Below are positions 28,418 to 37,857 of a stretch of 64,000 nucleotides of DNA, in pieces; position 1 is the first letter of the stretch; each line of letters opens with the position of its first letter. A program made the translations under genes and the position numbers. The stretch spans positions 1,382,386 through 1,446,385 of the forward strand of contig CP092081.1 in the NCBI GenBank assembly GCA_022226935.1. Reading direction: 5' to 3'. Under the pieces are notes generated by a model. It saw only the letters and a program-made list of their open reading frames with translations, was not told the DNA's origin and made no database searches. The stretch comes from Nitrospira sp. (lineage in GTDB: Bacteria > Nitrospirota > Nitrospiria > Nitrospirales > Nitrospiraceae).

Positions 28418-28851
28418 GCGCGCTGGGGGGACACGGGTGCTCGCTCGTCGAGCGTGCTCGGCGGGAGGAAAGTCCGGACTCCAAGGGCAAGGACGCTGGA
28501 TAACGTCCAGGCGGAGCGATCCGACACCAGCACCACAGAAAACAAACCGCCGATGGCCGCGTGAGGGATTTTGGTCACTCACAGCGGCTCAGGTAAGGGT
28601 GAAACGGCGGGGTAAGAGCCCACCGCGGTGATGGCGACATCAACGGCACGGTAAGCGTCGTCCGGAGCAAGACCAAATAGGGAGACGCCCGAGGGCTCGT
28701 AAGAGCTCAGCGGAAAGGCCGGCCCGGCCGAAGTCTCCGGGTAGGTTGCTTGAGGCTCGGGGCAACTCGAGTCCCAGAGAAATGATCACCCCCGTGTGAG
28801 CGCAAGCTTCATGCGGGACAGAATCCGGCTTATAGGGTCTCTCCAACGCGC
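28418..28851 (+). ncRNA. rnpB: RNase P RNA (bacterial type A)
   Basis: The catalytic RNA that trims 5' leaders from pre-tRNAs. Conserved blocks are visible: GAGGAAAGTCCGGACTCC near the front, GGGTAAGAGCCCACCGCG in the middle, and CAGAGAAATGATCA plus ACAGAATCCGGCTTA near the end. The ends are set by the P1 helix: 28418-28432 pairs with 28837-28851 over 15 positions with one mismatch and a few G-U pairs. A run of seven T follows, serving as terminator. The last 66 nt are antisense to the convergent thioredoxin-like gene. Confidence 0.96.
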
Positions 28852-29082
28852 TTTTTTTATCGCCTTCCGCAGCTCTCCGCCGGTGACCTTGCCGGAAAGA
28901 ATTTCTCGGTCGTTCAGCAGCACCACGGGTATGCGATGACCATATCGCTGCCGGAGGGCTTCATCGTGATCGATATCGACGATCGTCAGATGAAACGCGA
29001 GATCCTCCTGTACCTGGGCCGCCACACGGGCCACCGCGTGGCACAGATGGCATTCGCGACGAGACATGATCGTGAGGCGCAT
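28786..29082 (-). CDS. glutaredoxin/thioredoxin-like protein (CxxC), overlapping rnpB
   Basis: A small thioredoxin-fold protein of about 98 residues. It has an N-terminal beta-strand (RLTIMSR), a CHLC redox motif near residue 12, and the cis-proline strand RIPVVLLND, as in the DUF836 glutaredoxin-like family. The C-terminal basic tail (about 21 codons and the stop) is read from the strand opposite to the 3' end of rnpB. The start is uncertain: ATG at 29082 fits the fold best, with ATG 29091 and GTG 29106 in frame upstream and no strong ribosome site. Confidence 0.78.
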   Translation of the reverse strand: MRLTIMSRRECHLCHAVARVAAQVQEDLAFHLTIVDIDHDEALRQRYGHRIPVVLLNDREILSGKVTGGELRKAIKKARWRDPISRILSRMKLALTRG

Positions 29083-29183
29083 GGAACTCATTGGCAGTAG
29101 GCTCACAACTCGAAGACGTTCCTATATCACGGGGCGATGATCGACACTAGTCTGTCGCACAACGAGTTCCTGTCGTGACTCTC

Positions 29184-29213
29184 TTGACCTCACTTGCGGG
29201 CTGGTGATACGAT
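29184..29213 (+). promoter_or_regulatory. probable promoter of the ilvB operon
   Basis: TTGACC (29184-29189), an 18-bp spacer and TACGAT (29208-29213). It would give a leader of about 125 nt before ilvB, in which I see no attenuator-type leader peptide. Confidence 0.5.
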
Positions 29214-29344
29214 CCGCCATCTTACCCATTGATTTTTCAGAAAGATCGTAGCAGTCTGTGTCGCAAGCAAGAATGACGCAGCGTTGCTGCTCTTTCCAGT
29301 GATGGCACACGTCCTTCGCCATGCTGCGCGAAGGGGAGGGTGAT

Positions 29345-31123
29345 ATGAAGCTCACAGGGTCTGAAATCCTGATCGAATGCTTAAAAGCTGAAGGCGTGAA
29401 AACGATCTTCGCCTTGCCGGGCGGCGTCGTGTTGAAGATTTTCGACATGCTGCACCAGCAGAAAGACATCGAAGTTGTATTGACCCGCCACGAACAGGGT
29501 GCCGGGCATATGGCCGAAGGGTATGCCAAGGCCACCGGGAAAGCCGGCGTCTGTTTAGTGACCTCCGGTCCCGGAATGACCAATGTGATTACCGCGTTGG
29601 CCGATGCCTATATGGATTCAGTTCCCCTTGTGTGTATCAGCGGACAAGTGTCCACGAGTTTGATCGGGAACGATGCGTTTCAGGAAGCGGACAACATCGG
29701 CCTGAGTCGTCCCTGCACCAAGTACAACTTCCTTGTGAAGGATGTGAACGATCTGGCGACGACCATCAAGGAAGCATTTTACATCGCCACAACCGGGCGT
29801 CCCGGACCGGTGCTGGTGGATATTCCGAAAGATGTCTCGTTGGCGAAAGCGGAGTTCACGTACCCCAGCTCCGTGGCGATTCGCGGGTATAACCCGACGT
29901 ATGAGGGCAATAAGTGGCAGATCAAGCAGGCCGCTGAAGCCATCATGAAGGCGAAGAAACCGATTCTGTATGTCGGTGGCGGCGTCGTGTTTTCGCAGGC
30001 GTCAAAAGAGTTGCTTGAATTGGCGGAGATGACGCAGATCCCCGTCGATATGACCTTGATGGGCCTGGGCGCATTCCCCGGCGAACATCCGCAATCGATG
30101 GGAATGTTGGGCATGCACGGGACCTATTGCGCCAATATGGCGGTCCATTATTCCGATCTGGTGATCGCCGTGGGCGCGCGCTTCGATGACCGGGTCACCG
30201 GGAAGGTGTCGGAGTTTTGTCCTTTCGCCAAAGTGATCCATATCGATATCGATCCGACCTCCATCCGCAAGAATATCCACGTCGATATCCCGATCGTGGG
30301 TGATTGTAGGGCGGTGCTGCGGGAGTTGAATCAAATTCTCCGCGCCACGGTCAATGGCAATCAAAAGGATCTTCGCAAACCCTGGTGGGACCAAATCCGT
30401 GAATGGCAGCAGGCGCACCCGCTGGCCTACCAGCAGGAGCCGGATGGAGCGATCAAGCCGCAGCATGTCGTCAAACGGTTGTATGAACTGACGAAGGATC
30501 GTGATCCGATCGTGGCGACCGACGTGGGGCAACATCAGATGTGGACGGCGCAGTATTTTAAACTTGCCCGGCCGAATCGCTGGTTGACGTCGGGTGGATT
30601 AGGCACGATGGGCTTCGGCTTTCCTGCCGCCATGGGGGCCCAGGCTGCCTTCAGGGATCGCTTGGTGCTTTGCGTAGCCGGAGACGGCAGCATTCAGATG
30701 AACATGCAGGAAATGGCTACTGCGGTGGTGTCGAAGCTGCCGGTCAAAATTATCATTTTGAATAATCGTTTCCACGGCATGGTTCGCCAGTGGCAGGACC
30801 TGTTCTACGAAGGGCGCTATGCCTCCAGCTATTTGGACACCACGCCGGATTTTGTGAAATTGGCGGAAGCCTACGGCGCAGTGGGATTGCGCGCCGGCAA
30901 GGTGGGGGACCTCGATGCAGTGTTGAAGGAGGCCATCTCAACCGACAGGCCGGTGGTGGTTGATGTGCCCACCTATCCCTATGAGAATTGTTATCCGATG
31001 ATCCCAGCGGGCGGCTGTAATCACGAGATGATTCTCGCAGATCCGCCTGAGTTGAAACAGCGAATGGCCGGCGTGCCCAGTACCGGATCGGACGAAAACA
31101 AAGATACGATTCTCACGGCGTAG
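29345..31123 (+). CDS. ilvB: acetolactate synthase, large (catalytic) subunit
   Basis: A 592-residue TPP/FAD enzyme joining two pyruvates, or pyruvate and 2-oxobutyrate, in the first common step of valine, leucine and isoleucine synthesis. The catalytic Glu is in LTRHEQGAGHMAEGYA, the FAD region in GARFDDRVTGK, and the TPP/Mg motif in GDGSIQMNMQEM ending in ILNN. The start is set at the ATG behind GGGGAGGG; an upstream in-frame start eight codons away is less well placed. The C-terminal 20 residues are polar. ilvN follows after about 100 nt. Confidence 0.97.
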   Translation: MKLTGSEILIECLKAEGVKTIFALPGGVVLKIFDMLHQQKDIEVVLTRHEQGAGHMAEGYAKATGKAGVCLVTSGPGMTNVITALADAYMDSVPLVCISGQVSTSLIGNDAFQEADNIGLSRPCTKYNFLVKDVNDLATTIKEAFYIATTGRPGPVLVDIPKDVSLAKAEFTYPSSVAIRGYNPTYEGNKWQIKQAAEAIMKAKKPILYVGGGVVFSQASKELLELAEMTQIPVDMTLMGLGAFPGEHPQSMGMLGMHGTYCANMAVHYSDLVIAVGARFDDRVTGKVSEFCPFAKVIHIDIDPTSIRKNIHVDIPIVGDCRAVLRELNQILRATVNGNQKDLRKPWWDQIREWQQAHPLAYQQEPDGAIKPQHVVKRLYELTKDRDPIVATDVGQHQMWTAQYFKLARPNRWLTSGGLGTMGFGFPAAMGAQAAFRDRLVLCVAGDGSIQMNMQEMATAVVSKLPVKIIILNNRFHGMVRQWQDLFYEGRYASSYLDTTPDFVKLAEAYGAVGLRAGKVGDLDAVLKEAISTDRPVVVDVPTYPYENCYPMIPAGGCNHEMILADPPELKQRMAGVPSTGSDENKDTILTA

Positions 31124-31226
31124 GGAGAATGAGCTGACGGCCGACTAGACCGTGCCAAATCGGAGTTCGTAGAGGTAAACCCTCGGCGGACCAGGCAGGA
31201 CTCGGTGGTGAGCTTATGGAAATTCC

Positions 31227-31745
31227 ATGGAACACATTATTTCAGTGACCGTTGAAAATAAATTTGGCGTGTTATCGCGCGTGGCTGGGTTGTTCAGCGG
31301 CCGCGGATTCAATATCGAAAGTCTGTCGGTTGCGCCAACCCTTGATCCGTCCATGTCCCAGATGACCATCGTCACGTCAGGGGATGAGCGAATCGTTGAG
31401 CAAATAGTCAAGCAGCTCAACAAGCTGATCGACGTCATCAAGGTCGTGGATCTCAACGAAAGCGAGTTCGTCTCGCGCGAGACCGCGCTGATCAAGGTGC
31501 ATACGAAGGCGGAAGACCGCGCTGAAGCGCTCAGAATTGCCGATATTTTCCGCGCCAATGTGATCGATTCCACGCCGTCGACCTATACCATTGAGGTGAC
31601 GGGCGATCCGAAAAAGCTTGAGGCCATCATCAACTTGCTCCAGCCGCTCGGCATCAAGGAGCTGATCAGGACGGGGCGAGTGGCGATCGCGCGCGAGGCG
31701 ATCCGGTCGGCCGTCAGCCAACCGAAGAAGCTCGCTCGAGAATAG
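31227..31745 (+). CDS. ilvN: acetolactate synthase, small (regulatory) subunit
   Basis: A 172-residue regulatory subunit. The N-terminal ACT domain (HIISVTVENKFGVLSRVAGLFSGRGFNIESLSV, shown by its Gly-Val-Leu and Asn-Ile-Glu-Ser features) binds valine for feedback control, and the C-terminal half has the typical second ferredoxin-like domain (FRANVIDSTPSTYTIEVTGD). It stimulates and confers feedback inhibition on IlvB. It is also called ilvH in other species. It is followed by ilvC after 67 nt. Confidence 0.96.
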   Translation: MEHIISVTVENKFGVLSRVAGLFSGRGFNIESLSVAPTLDPSMSQMTIVTSGDERIVEQIVKQLNKLIDVIKVVDLNESEFVSRETALIKVHTKAEDRAEALRIADIFRANVIDSTPSTYTIEVTGDPKKLEAIINLLQPLGIKELIRTGRVAIAREAIRSAVSQPKKLARE

Positions 31746-31809
31746 CGCGCGCATCCTCTCTGTGCACCAATCGTTTCCATCCATGTGCCTTAAGAACATT
31801 CAGGAGTGA

Positions 31810-32826
<1,017 letters not shown>

Positions 32827-32875
32827 CTCAACCGACGGATTCTTCGTGGTAGCATGATAGAGGGCCTGGAGGGGT

Positions 32876-33526
32876 ATGGCTGATCGAGCCGTCGGAATAC
32901 CGATTGTCAAAGAAGGCTTGCCGTTTGTCGGTGGTCTCGCAGGCGCGACGCTGTTGTCCGGGCTGGCGGGCTGGACCATTCCCACGGTCGTATCGGCTGG
33001 GTTTTTGTTATTTACCGCCTGGTTCTTCAGAAATCCCAGCCGGACCATTCCGCAGCAGCCGGATGTGGTCGTCTCATCCGGAGACGGTAAGGTCATCGCG
33101 ATCGAAGAAGAATTCGAGCCCCGGTATCTGAAGGAAAAAAGCATTCGCGTCACGGTATTTTTGAATGTGTTCGATGTGCACGTGAACCGGATGCCTTGCG
33201 CCGGAACCGTCGAAGGGGTGAGTTACCAACCCGGTCAGTTCCTCGTGGCGAGCAAGCCGGAAGCGACGCTCCGTAACGAACAAAATGCCGTGATGCTGAA
33301 GACCGAGTCGGGAGCGAAGGTGTTGTGTGTGCAGGTCGCAGGGCTGATTGCCCGCCGGATCGTCTGTTGGGTCGGGCAGGGCGATCGCGTGCAGCGCGGT
33401 GAACGGTTCGGGTTGATCCGGTTCGGTTCGCGAATGGATACCTTTCTTCCGCTTGGGTCGAAGATTTGCGTCTCGTTGGGCGACCGCGTTAAAGGGGGCG
33501 AAACCATCGTGGGGGAACTCCGATGA
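32876..33526 (+). CDS. psd: phosphatidylserine decarboxylase proenzyme (short form)
   Basis: A 216-residue membrane-associated pyruvoyl enzyme that makes phosphatidylethanolamine. Self-cleavage would occur before Ser185 in RFGSRMDTFLP, forming the pyruvoyl group; the small alpha chain is the last 32 residues. Two N-terminal hydrophobic segments (VGGLAGATLLSGLAGW and TVVSAGFLLFTAWFF) anchor it. The VHVNRMP segment is conserved. It overlaps pssA by 4 nt, pairing consecutive enzymes of the phospholipid pathway. Confidence 0.95.
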   Translation: MADRAVGIPIVKEGLPFVGGLAGATLLSGLAGWTIPTVVSAGFLLFTAWFFRNPSRTIPQQPDVVVSSGDGKVIAIEEEFEPRYLKEKSIRVTVFLNVFDVHVNRMPCAGTVEGVSYQPGQFLVASKPEATLRNEQNAVMLKTESGAKVLCVQVAGLIARRIVCWVGQGDRVQRGERFGLIRFGSRMDTFLPLGSKICVSLGDRVKGGETIVGELR

Positions 33527-34326
33527 AATCTCCAACCATGCGACCTCCGTTTGCGAAGGGGCACCGAAAGCGTCAGGCGATGTACCTGATTCCCAACCTC
33601 TGCACAACCGGCAATTTGTTTTGTGGCGTGTTTGCCATCCTGTCCGTGTTCAATGGGCAGCATTTAGTGGCTGCCATCGCCATCCTGGTCGGCATGATTT
33701 TCGACATGTTGGATGGGAAGCTGGCGCGGTTGACGAACAGCACCGGTCAGTTCGGTATCGAGTACGACTCTCTCTCTGATGTGGTGTCCTTCGGCGTCGC
33801 GCCGGGCGTGTTGATTTATTCTTACGCGCTGAGTGGACAGGGCATGTTTGGTGTGGCGGTCATGTTCGCCTATGTCGCCATGGGCGCTGTGCGCCTCGCT
33901 CGATTCAATGCCACAGTGAGCACGTCCGACAGCAAGTATTTTACCGGCTTAGCGATTCCGGCGGCTGCGGGTGTCATTGCATCGCTGGTTATCTTTGATC
34001 TCCACATCACCCAGTTGGGGGCGGAAGTGAAACCGCTGCTAATTCTGGTGATTACGTTTGGGCTGGCATTTCTGATGGTCAGTACGATCAAGTATCGCAG
34101 CTTCAAGGATATGAAGTTCCGACGAGGCGATCACTTCACGTATCTCGTGTGGGGAATTTTGGCCTTGATGTTGATTGTCGCGTGGCCTCAAGCTATGCTG
34201 TTTGTGACCTTCACGGGTTATGCAGTGTCAGGTCCGATTGCACGCCTCTGGACGATGATCGCCAAGAGTGCAGGAAAGCCGGTGGCGAAAGGTGATGGAC
34301 CGGTGGTCGAGACAAGAGAGTCGTAA
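33523..34326 (+). CDS. pssA: CDP-diacylglycerol-serine O-phosphatidyltransferase
   Basis: A 267-residue integral membrane enzyme that forms phosphatidylserine. The CDP-alcohol phosphatidyltransferase motif DxxDGxxARxxxxxxxxGxxxDxxxD is present in DMLDGKLARLT through YDSLSD. About six to eight hydrophobic segments follow, including LLILVITFGLAFLMV. The N-terminal 20 residues are basic. It overlaps psd by ATGA and ends just before the T-box leader of leuA. Confidence 0.95.
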   Translation: MKSPTMRPPFAKGHRKRQAMYLIPNLCTTGNLFCGVFAILSVFNGQHLVAAIAILVGMIFDMLDGKLARLTNSTGQFGIEYDSLSDVVSFGVAPGVLIYSYALSGQGMFGVAVMFAYVAMGAVRLARFNATVSTSDSKYFTGLAIPAAAGVIASLVIFDLHITQLGAEVKPLLILVITFGLAFLMVSTIKYRSFKDMKFRRGDHFTYLVWGILALMLIVAWPQAMLFVTFTGYAVSGPIARLWTMIAKSAGKPVAKGDGPVVETRES

Positions 34327-34334
34327 CGGCATTG

Positions 34335-34593
34335 ACGAGGAGTAGTAGGGAGCGTAAACCGAATCGAGAGAGCTGGTGGACGGTGCGAACCAGCCGGTTG
34401 CCTCCTGAACTCGCCTCCGAGCCGGACTTGTGAAGCCTCATGATGAGGTGGTAATGAGTCCCGAATGATCCGCGTCACGGATTTAATGAGGGTGTCTGGT
34501 GAAGGCTGTCTTCATCCGGCGCTGAATCAGGGTGGTACCACGAAGCTCGCAAGGCCTTCGTCCCTGTCCAGGGGCGGAGGCTTTTTTATTTTT
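34335..34593 (+). promoter_or_regulatory. T-box riboswitch (leucine type) upstream of leuA, with terminator
   Basis: Stem I is recognisable: AGTAGTA in a 5' internal loop (34341-34347), the distal hairpin CTGGT/ACCAG with GGTGGACGGTG, and a 3' internal loop reading TGAACTCG. The probable specifier is CTC (Leu) at 34410-34412. The invariant T-box AGGGTGGTACCACG is at 34529-34542. The terminator is a 13-bp helix between 34553-34565 and 34569-34581 (two G-U pairs) followed by CTTTTTTATTTTT. Uncharged tRNA-Leu would hold the antiterminator and let leuA be transcribed. Confidence 0.88.
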
Positions 34594-34619
34594 CGAATGC
34601 TGAAACAGGTGTCCGGCTT

Positions 34620-34700
34620 CGTTCTCGGCTTGGAAACGTCCTCGACGTACCGCAAGGGTACGCCTCCGGTGTTTCCTTCGCCTGCGGCCTCGCCAGCCTA
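34620..34700. repeat. imperfect hairpin element between the T-box and leuA
   Basis: GGAAAC at 34632-34637 is mirrored by GTTTCC further on, and CGTACC pairs with GGTACG around a GCAA loop (about 34646-34663). Together they make an imperfect long hairpin downstream of the terminator. Its form suggests a dispersed intergenic repeat; I see no second copy in this window. Confidence 0.4.
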
Positions 34701-34749
34701 TCTGTTTGAGCATTCTGTACGATGCGAGTAACGAAGGAGGAGGTAGGCC

Positions 34750-36297
34750 ATGACTCGGATGATCAGAATATTCGACACGACGTTGCGGGACGGCGAGCAA
34801 TCGCCGGGCGCGAGCATGAACGTCGAAGAGAAACTTATGATCGCCAAGCAGCTGGCACGCCTCGGCGTGGATATTATCGAGGCCGGGTTTGCCTACAGCT
34901 CGCCTGGCGATTTCGACGCGGTGAGACGGATCGCCCTGGGGGTGGAGGGACCGGTAGTCTGCAGCCTGGCGCGGGCCAGGCCGGAAGACATCACGCGTGC
35001 GTCGGAAGCCTTGAAAGGCGCGCCGAAGGTGCGCATTCATACATTCCTCTCCACGTCGGATATCCATTTGAAGCATCAGTTTCGGATGACACGCGAAGAA
35101 GCAAAGAAACGAGCTGTAGAGATGGTGCAATTGGCGCGCACCTACGTCGATGACGTTGAGTTTTCTCCCATGGACGCCAGCCGGTCGGACCCAGCGTATC
35201 TCTGTGAAGTGATTGAGGCGGTGATTGCCGCTGGTGCCGGAACAATCAACATTCCCGACACGGTGGGGTATGCGGTCCCGCAAGAGTTCGGAGGACTGAT
35301 CAAGCGAATTAAGGACACGGTGCCGAACAGCGGCCAGGCAGTCATTTCCGTGCATTGTCACAATGATTTGGGCATGGCGGTGGCCAATAGTCTCTCCGCA
35401 GTGGTGGCGGGGGCCGGCCAGGTCGAATGCACCATCAACGGGATCGGCGAACGAGCCGGCAATACCTCGCTGGAAGAAATTGTGATGGGGCTTCGGACGC
35501 GCCGGGATTGGTACGGGGCCGACACGAAGGTCGTGACAGAAGAGATATCCAAAACCAGCCGCCTGGTGAGCAAGATCACCGGCATGGTCATTCAGCCGAA
35601 CAAGGCCATCGTGGGGGCGAATGCGTTTGCCCATACGTCAGGCATTCATCAAGACGGCTTGCTCAAAGATAAGACCACCTATGAGATCATGCGCCCGGAG
35701 TCGGTGGGGCTGGAGCAAGTCAAGTTGGTGATGGGCAAATTGTCAGGCCGCCATGCGTTCCGGCAGCGGCTGGAAGACTTGGGCTATAAGCTGACGGAGG
35801 ACGAGGTCAATCACGCCTTTGAACGCTTCAAGCGGCTGGCGGATCAAAAGAAAGAAATTTACGAGGAAGACCTCGAGGTCATCATCTCCGAAGAAGTGGC
35901 CAAGATGTCCGAACGAGTGGTCCTGAAGTCGTTTCAGGTCGAAAGTGGAACCAATAAGACGCCGAAAGCCACAGTCGAACTGGAGATTGACGGGAAGGTG
36001 GTGTCGCACAGTGGAACGGGCGATGGACCGGTGGACGCGGTCTACCGGACGATTGCCGCCATGACGCAAACCAAGAGCAAGCTGCTGATGTTCGGGGTGA
36101 ATGCCATCACCGGCGGGACAGATGCACAAGGAGAAGTTTCAGTGCGGCTCGAAGAAGATGGCCGGACCGTCTCGGGTCATGGAGCGGATACGGACATCAT
36201 CACCGCGGCTGCCAGGGCCTATCTGAATGCGCTCAATAAGCTGGCGTATTTTGCGGCTAAGCAGGCTGAGGGGATTCATAAGGTCAGCTTGATTTGA
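34750..36297 (+). CDS. leuA: 2-isopropylmalate synthase
   Basis: A 515-residue enzyme that joins acetyl-CoA to 2-oxoisovalerate, committing carbon to leucine. The catalytic TIM barrel starts with [17 protein letters not shown] and has [16 protein letters not shown] and [18 protein letters not shown] as metal and substrate segments. The C-terminal regulatory domain (about residues 400-510) would bind leucine for feedback inhibition. Ribosome site GGAGGAGG. Transcription is gated by the T-box leader upstream, so charging of tRNA-Leu and leucine itself would control it at two levels. Confidence 0.97.
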
Positions 36298-36325
36298 TCC
36301 CAACCTGCAAGGTAGATTCCTCCGT

Positions 36326-36352
36326 CCTGACCAGCGCATCGTGCTGGTCAGG
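36326..36352. terminator. perfect hairpin after leuA
   Basis: CCTGACCAGC (36326-36335) pairs perfectly with 36343-36352 around a 7-nt loop. No T-run follows directly, so this may be an mRNA-stabilising or weak terminator element between leuA and the cupin gene. Confidence 0.45.
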
Positions 36353-36399
36353 GCGGGGCGACATCTTTTCTTGTCCCCTATCGTCATAATCGGCACACG

Positions 36400-36762
36400 A
36401 TGTTCAGCACGCACCTTCAACAATGCCCTGAATTTCTGGCGGGCGATCACACGAGATTGCGGGAATTGCTGCATCCGGGAAAGGCCGCGCTGGAACTAAG
36501 CTATAGCCTCGCCCATGGATTGCTCGATCCGGGCAAGCAGTCCCTGTGGCATCGCCTGAAATCGTCCGAGGTGTATTACTTCATCGCCGGGCGTGGGGTC
36601 ATGAAGGTGGACGAGGCATCGATGGCGGTTCAGGCTGGCTCCGTCATTTATGTGCCGCCGGGCGCCAAGCAGTCCCTGGTCAATACCGGAACAGAATCGA
36701 TCGAGTTTCTCTGCCTGGTCGATCCCGCCTGGAAGGCGGAAGATGAGGCGGTCGTTGAATAG
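36400..36762 (+). CDS. cupin-domain protein
   Basis: A 120-residue single cupin. The metal-binding motifs are HRLKSSEVYYFIAGRGVMKV (first) and PPGAKQSLVNTG (second), though the usual GxHxH of motif 1 is reduced to one His. Such proteins range from sugar epimerases to storage-type binders, and no substrate can be named. It lies between leuA and leuB, 18 nt before the latter, so it is probably in the leucine transcript. Confidence 0.85.
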   Translation: MFSTHLQQCPEFLAGDHTRLRELLHPGKAALELSYSLAHGLLDPGKQSLWHRLKSSEVYYFIAGRGVMKVDEASMAVQAGSVIYVPPGAKQSLVNTGTESIEFLCLVDPAWKAEDEAVVE

Positions 36763-36780
36763 CCGAGAGGAGAGCGTGAC

Positions 36781-37857
36781 GTGAAAGCAAAAATCGCAGT
36801 CCTGGCCGGAGATGGAGTCGGCCGTGAAATTGTTCCCGAAGCGGTCAAGGTCTTAAAGACGGTGGCAGAGCGGTTCGGGCACACCTTTGAATTTCAAGCG
36901 GCAGATGTGGGTGGCCATGCCATCGATAAGGTCGGAGTTCCTCTTCCGGCAGAGACACTCGCACTCGCGAAACAAAGCGATGCGGTCTTGCTCGGAGCCG
37001 TCGGCGGACCCAAATGGGAAGGCCTGGATTACAGCATCCGTCCCGAGCGGGCCTTGCTTGGCCTGCGCGAACAGCTCGGACTCTATGCGAATTTGCGCCC
37101 GGCGAAACTCTATCCCATGCTGGCCGATGCCTCCACCTTGCGACGGGAGGTTATCGAAGGGATCGATATGCTCGTGATCCGCGAGCTGACCGGCGGCATC
37201 TATTTCGGCAAACCGAAGGGCGTGGAAAAACTGCCCGGCGGCGGAGAGCGCGGGTTTAATACGGAGGTCTATACGACGGAGGAAATTCGCCGTATTGCGG
37301 TGGTGGCGTTCGAAGCGGCCCGCAAGCGCCGGAAGAAGGTCATGTCGGTCGACAAGGCCAATGTGCTGGAGTCCTCCGAATTATGGCGGCGGGTGGTGAC
37401 AGATGTTCACAAAAACTATACCGATGTGACGTTGAGCCACATCTATGTCGACAATTGCGCCATGCAGTTGGTGCGCAATCCACGTCAATTCGATGTATTG
37501 CTGTGCAACAATATCTTCGGCGATATCTTGAGCGACGAAGCCGCGATGCTGACCGGATCGATCGGCATGCTGCCTTCCGCCAGTGTCGGCGCCAAGGTGG
37601 GCCTCTTTGAGCCGATTCATGGGAGCGCCCCGGACATCGCCGGAAAGAATATTGCCAATCCGATTGCCACCATCGCTTCGGGAGCGATGATGCTGTCCTA
37701 CGCGTTTCAGTTGGACAAGGAGGCTGCGGCCATTGAGCAGGCGATTGTGAAGACGCTTGAAATGGGATTCCGTACCAAAGACATTCATGCCGAAGGCATG
37801 CGGTTGGTCGGGACCACTGAGATGGGTGATGCGATCGTGAAGAACCTTCCCGCCTAG
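36781..37857 (+). CDS. leuB: 3-isopropylmalate dehydrogenase
   Basis: A 358-residue NAD-dependent beta-decarboxylating dehydrogenase of leucine synthesis. Landmarks are [41 protein letters not shown], the Mg/substrate helix [16 protein letters not shown], and [25 protein letters not shown] with [14 protein letters not shown]. It starts with a GTG behind GAGAG. leuC and leuD are not in the window. Confidence 0.97.

Follow-up and report, generated by a model that had tools for sequence, protein, structure and literature searches.

The question raised by this locus is whether leuA of a Nitrospira is controlled by a leucine-specific T-box riboswitch, and how such a switch came to lie outside the Firmicutes. 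We analysed a stretch of 64,000 nucleotides (the window) from a genome that, as a preliminary description of the DNA had guessed, belongs to the genus Nitrospira. According to the accessible text of the papers cited here, T-boxes occur in Firmicutes, Actinobacteria, Chloroflexi and Thermus/Deinococcus, with Geobacter as a further case (PMC3766115), and a T-box before leuA has been described for both Geobacter and Pelobacter (PMC2494555), with tRNA-Leu(GAG) as the predicted cognate tRNA in Geobacter (PMC2700814). The preliminary description held that a leuA T-box outside Firmicutes merits attention; it was right about the location, and the surprise is smaller than it implied, since the Geobacter and Pelobacter cases had already been published. 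A literature search covering few subscription papers returned no report of a T-box in Nitrospirota, and TBDB or Rfam may already list such sequences. The Nitrospira element proved ordinary in mechanism, and it is its evolutionary setting that is of interest.

Identity and structure of the leader

The Rfam T-box model (RF00230) matched positions 34323–34568 of the window on the + strand with 95.0 bits (E 1.5e-19, cmscan). The match spanned model positions 1–219 of 219 and was not cut off, and its score exceeded the gathering score of 93 bits by only 2 bits, a thin margin. The covariance search proposed in the preliminary description thus gave a full-length match above the cut-off. The 5′ end, at about 34323, overlapped the pssA stop codon (34324–34326). 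The parts of the leader were located by model alignment or directly in the sequence:

34323..34568, + strand: T-box leader, full RF00230 model (95.0 bits; covariation)
34329..34422, + strand: Stem I (cmscan alignment; helices 1–5 paired in 82.9–100% of cells)
34344–34347, + strand: AGUA of the S-turn in Stem I (cmscan alignment)
from about 34367, + strand: AGAGAG bulge in Stem I (cmscan alignment)
34372–34394, + strand: distal stem-loop of Stem I (cmscan alignment)
34410..34412, + strand: specifier codon CTC (Leu), directly after GAA at 34407–34409 (sequence and alignment)
34425..34460, + strand: Stem II (helix 6; double changes in 7/7 pairs)
34491..34523, + strand: Stem III (helices 8–9; 97.2% and 42.9% paired)
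34529..34565, + strand: antiterminator (helices 10–11; 100% of cells paired)
34533..34539, + strand: T-box bulge UGGUACC, with UGGU at 34533–34536 (sequence)
34551..34584, + strand: intrinsic terminator hairpin; 34557–34565 doubles as the 3′ arm of the antiterminator
34582..34593, + strand: terminator T-tract, TTTTTTATTTTT (sequence)

Stem I, the T-box sequence, the CTC specifier and the terminator, all named in the preliminary description, were therefore found; of its coordinates (34335–34593), the location held, with the start about 12 bases late and the 5′ base of Stem I missed. By model alignment, the distal features of Stem I (AG bulge and distal loop) were present as well. The specifier loop read GAA-CUC-GCC, and the bulge conformed to the 7-nt UGGNACC T-box bulge, in which the base at N pairs with the discriminator base of the tRNA. 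The leader has the same Stem I, specifier loop, stems II/III, 7-nt UGGUACC bulge and terminator as the leucine class of RF00230 in Firmicutes. It differs from that class in lying inside an ilv-psd-pssA-leuA cluster, and the specifier is followed by GCC in most of the loci studied here versus ACC in the RF00230 model consensus.

The 3′ arm of the antiterminator is reused by the terminator, so that the two hairpins are mutually exclusive. The terminator folded at −24.6 kcal/mol, compared with a shuffle mean of −11.6, and none of 1000 dinucleotide shuffles was as low. Folded freely, the whole leader did not adopt the T-box fold; this is expected of a tRNA-dependent structure, and lends the assignment no support either.

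Covariation was assessed in 36 relatives chosen from 106 T-box loci, with the structure taken from RF00230. Across these relatives, 88.3% of cells were paired in the model structure, compared with 36–46% in slid versions of it. Double changes, with both sides altered, were observed in 33 of 47 pairs, and the covariation score of 0.341 exceeded that of the shuffles (0.192; 0/500 as high). The inner pairs of Stem III were variable and poorly aligned (42.9% paired), and in the short helix that follows Stem II one pair was unsupported in the 36-relative alignment. On sequence evidence, element 34323–34568 was confirmed as a real T-box with a leucine (CUC) specifier before leuA.

Gene cluster

The T-box lies within a gene run ordered ilvB-ilvN-ilvC-psd-pssA-[T-box]-leuA-cupin-leuB. 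The gene names, assigned by protein family, are supported by the gene order common with the Geobacter loci described below.

29321..31123, + strand: ilvB, acetolactate synthase large subunit, first gene of the cluster (ORF; order common with Geobacter loci)
31227..31745, + strand: ilvN (ORF; order common with Geobacter loci)
31813..32826, + strand: ilvC (ORF; order common with Geobacter loci)
32876..33526, + strand: psd, phosphatidylserine decarboxylase (ORF; order common with Geobacter loci)
33523..34326, + strand: pssA, phosphatidylserine synthase (ORF; stop overlaps the T-box start; junction conserved)
34750..36297, + strand: leuA, 2-isopropylmalate synthase, predicted controlled gene (ORF; downstream in 103/106 loci)
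36400–36762, + strand: cupin ORF, between leuA and leuB
36781..37857, + strand: leuB, likely co-transcribed (ORF; order kept in many of the pattern-scan loci listed)

The T-box was the sole Rfam match in 28850–37000, even with E up to 1, which ruled out a second T-box or another known leader before ilvB. Upstream of the ilv cluster, RNase P RNA (RF00010, 277 bits) was found at 28425–28848. A simple consensus scan, which is weak evidence, detected no sigma-70-like promoter in 33400–34800, and hence no local one between pssA and leuA. We infer that the T-box acts as an internal attenuator of the cluster; from its position it would tune the leucine branch separately, sparing ilvBNC and both phospholipid genes.

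Distribution in Nitrospira and Nitrospirota

The element in the window was the only T-box found in its genome. Within the genus, a T-box was present in 28 of 29 genomes, the one lacking a match being 89% complete. Matches exceeded the RF00230 cut-off in 22 of the 29 genomes, with scores of up to 114.9 bits, and fell below it in 6 of the 28. In a sample of the phylum, 94 of 295 genomes carried a T-box, each with a single match, and 201 gave none. None of the 18 genomes listed for f2, a sister family within the same order, carried a T-box. The T-box thus appears to be conserved over the whole family of the window genome and absent from f2.

A total of 106 T-box loci were examined (L001–L050 and L101–L156). 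pssA was found upstream in 104 of them and leuA downstream in 103; the neighbour was not visible in the others (leuA in L009, L117 and L119; pssA in L042 and L139). Wherever the downstream gene could be seen it was leuA, and 102 of the 106 loci had a terminator-like hairpin. At one locus (L034), pssA and leuA both lay several hundred bases from the T-box. Two T-boxes (L132 and L151) had a shortened Stem I without the distal part and retained the CUC specifier and the terminator. These results add Nitrospirota, to which key nitrifiers belong, to the phyla with predicted control of leucine synthesis by a tRNA sensor; here the T-box is conserved across a whole family and tied to one operon layout common with Geobacter.

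Occurrence beyond the phylum and origin

According to the accessible text of PMC2494555 and PMC2700814, the leuA T-boxes of Geobacter sulfurreducens, G. metallireducens and Pelobacter carbinolicus likewise precede leuA. A pattern scan of named genomes gave at least 117 matching stretches, 80 of which were listed and analysed; the listed matches included Nitrospira, Geobacter, Geomonas, Desulfuromonadales, 'Deltaproteobacteria', Paenibacillus, Sumerlaeota and Hinthialibacteria. Twelve loci among the matches listed, titled Geobacter, Geobacteraceae, Geomonas, Desulfuromonas, Desulfuromonadales or Deltaproteobacteria, were compared with the window. The order psd-pssA-[T]-leuA was found in 8 of these 12 listed loci (L175, L204, L210, L212, L214, L235, L246 and L254), and the remaining four showed only leuA (L179, L197, L206 and L211; L197 was too short upstream). 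Among the matches listed, the placement of a T-box between pssA and leuA was thus also seen in Geobacter-named loci. Geobacter and Pelobacter belong to a different phylum than Nitrospira, and the sequences have diverged, with LeuA about 56–59% identical.

In a tree built from 49 chosen LeuA rows, the Nitrospirota rows all fell into one group (support at its base 90/78), and the Desulfuromonadota-like rows formed a separate group (100/99). Rows without a T-box, from f2, f3 and f4, nested among the Nitrospirota carriers, which fits loss of the T-box in those families. The tree includes few T-box-free rows, most of the 201 T-box-free genomes being absent from it, and its non-Nitrospirota rows were all picked by the T-box pattern, so that it cannot date the origin of the element.

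The T-box was likely inherited together with the operon, and from these comparisons it appears to be an old operon feature that Geobacter and its relatives also have and that some Nitrospirota have lost. A recent transfer from Firmicutes would be in keeping with the high frequency of T-boxes in that phylum, where they are most frequent according to the accessible text of PMC2494555, and with the Paenibacillus loci that carry the pattern used in the scan. Such a transfer is nevertheless improbable, as the same pssA-leuA junction is shared by several families of Nitrospirota and by Desulfuromonadota, and the T-box-free f2, f3 and f4 nest within carriers in the LeuA tree. Conservation across a whole family and a single operon layout common with Geobacter favour inheritance with the operon over scattered recent transfers from Firmicutes.

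Leader-peptide candidates at the same site in the sister family

The gap between pssA and leuA was inspected in 36 loci of T-box-free families with a visible pssA (34 from f2 and one each from f3 and f4; L329, without pssA, was dropped). A terminator tail was kept in 22 gaps and missing from 14, mostly from g17, with gap lengths of 49–64 nt. Short ORFs with at least three leucine codons in four were found in 16 of the 22 terminator-bearing gaps and in none of the 14 others; T-box leaders measured likewise had one in 2 of 106 (16/36 versus 2/106, Fisher p 1.5e-9, a guide only, since the loci are related and not independent). Per locus, the leucine excess was modest (shuffle fractions 0.02–0.12, ten positive loci of 20). 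In g13, 9 of 13 ORFs were exactly 31 codons long, a length also found in 2 of g14, and the five ORFs of g16 ended in a leucine-rich tail right before the stop. Leucine-rich short ORFs before a terminator, with the T-box absent, are exemplified by L295, L303, L305, L314 and L315 and by L294, L296, L297 and L330. Pairwise differences at codon positions 1, 2 and 3 were 221, 162 and 275 in g13, a modest third-position excess, and 25, 18 and 20 in g16, where there was no such excess.

Judged by these sequence features, the leucine-rich short ORF and terminator of f2 form a candidate leader-peptide attenuator at the T-box site. Ribosome-mediated leucine leader-peptide attenuators are of the classical leu leader type. 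The f2 candidates share their control target and occupy the same pssA-leuA gap as the T-box. The T-box in the window differs from such attenuators in reading the tRNA directly, without a leader peptide.

In six f2 loci, a threshold as loose as E 10 still gave no T-box match, which excluded an Rfam-detectable remnant there. In g16, possible worn T-box antiterminator arms (GGGTGCC ... GCCTTCGTCCC) were compared by eye only; with no Rfam remnant in the six loci, it is this by-eye comparison that suggests a worn T-box. The g16 stretches GATCGGG and CCCGATC can pair by inspection, and free folds showed no clear pairing. A plausible, if not quite probable, history of the junction is that an ancestral T-box, still present in the family of the window genome, lost its tRNA-binding domain in the sister family and that its terminator was retained there and came to serve a ribosome-sensing leucine leader peptide. 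If true, one leucine attenuator would here have been converted into another along a path that can be traced. The sister family offers a chance to follow a possible replacement of one attenuation device by another at the same spot.

Specifier, tRNA and predicted mechanism

Ten long tRNA genes were fetched from the genome, five of them for leucine (UAA, UAG, CAA, GAG and CAG). The anticodon of tRNA-Leu(GAG) matches the CUC specifier, and its A73-CCA end is complementary to UGGU at 34533–34536. All five tRNA-Leu end in ACCA, so the bulge cannot choose among them and the choice falls to the specifier. TGGT of the bulge was kept in 106/106 loci, and the specifier was CUC in 104 and CUG in 2, a leucine codon in every case. 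CUC is the commonest leucine specifier, at 74% in TBDB according to the accessible text of PMC7778990.

Taken at the sequence level, the full set of parts, the agreement with a tRNA encoded in the same genome, the covariation and the conservation argue that the leader is almost certainly a canonical transcription-terminating T-box sensing leucine through tRNA-Leu(GAG). The tRNA binding, termination, read-through and co-transcription that follow are those we infer from this assignment. RNA polymerase arriving through pssA would transcribe Stem I, and the CUC specifier would pair with the GAG anticodon. An uncharged tRNA would have its ACCA end free to pair with UGGU of the bulge and stabilize the antiterminator (34529–34565); with the antiterminator held, transcription would continue into leuA and on through the cupin ORF and leuB. 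With charged tRNA the antiterminator would not be held, the terminator (34551–34584) would form and transcription would stop before leuA.

The score barely above the cut-off, together with the terminator kept in 22 of 36 gaps of the T-box-free families, could also point to a degenerate T-box that has ceased to switch, its terminator alone acting as a constitutive attenuator inside the operon. This is very unlikely given that the specifier, bulge and antiterminator are conserved, and the helices covary, across the genus and family. A response to another amino acid or tRNA is hardly credible: the specifier register was taken from the model alignment, but CUC immediately follows GAA in the specifier loop and alters only to CUG (2/106 loci), and the downstream gene is leuA wherever visible.

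The two CUG specifiers were found in loci L038 and L041, with tRNA-Leu(GAG) still present. Both genomes (G183 and G251) keep the GAG and CAG tRNAs, and loss of tRNA-Leu(GAG) was therefore ruled out as an explanation of the specifier change.

Between the terminator and leuA lies a hairpin-forming repeat (34594–34722). We do not favour it as a part of the switch because it is a dispersed repeat, found at 32 places in the genome (68–100% identical), though it often lies 3′ of the T-box in relatives: a relative of the repeat comes after the T-box at 24 of 28 loci in the genus and at 27 of 78 others.
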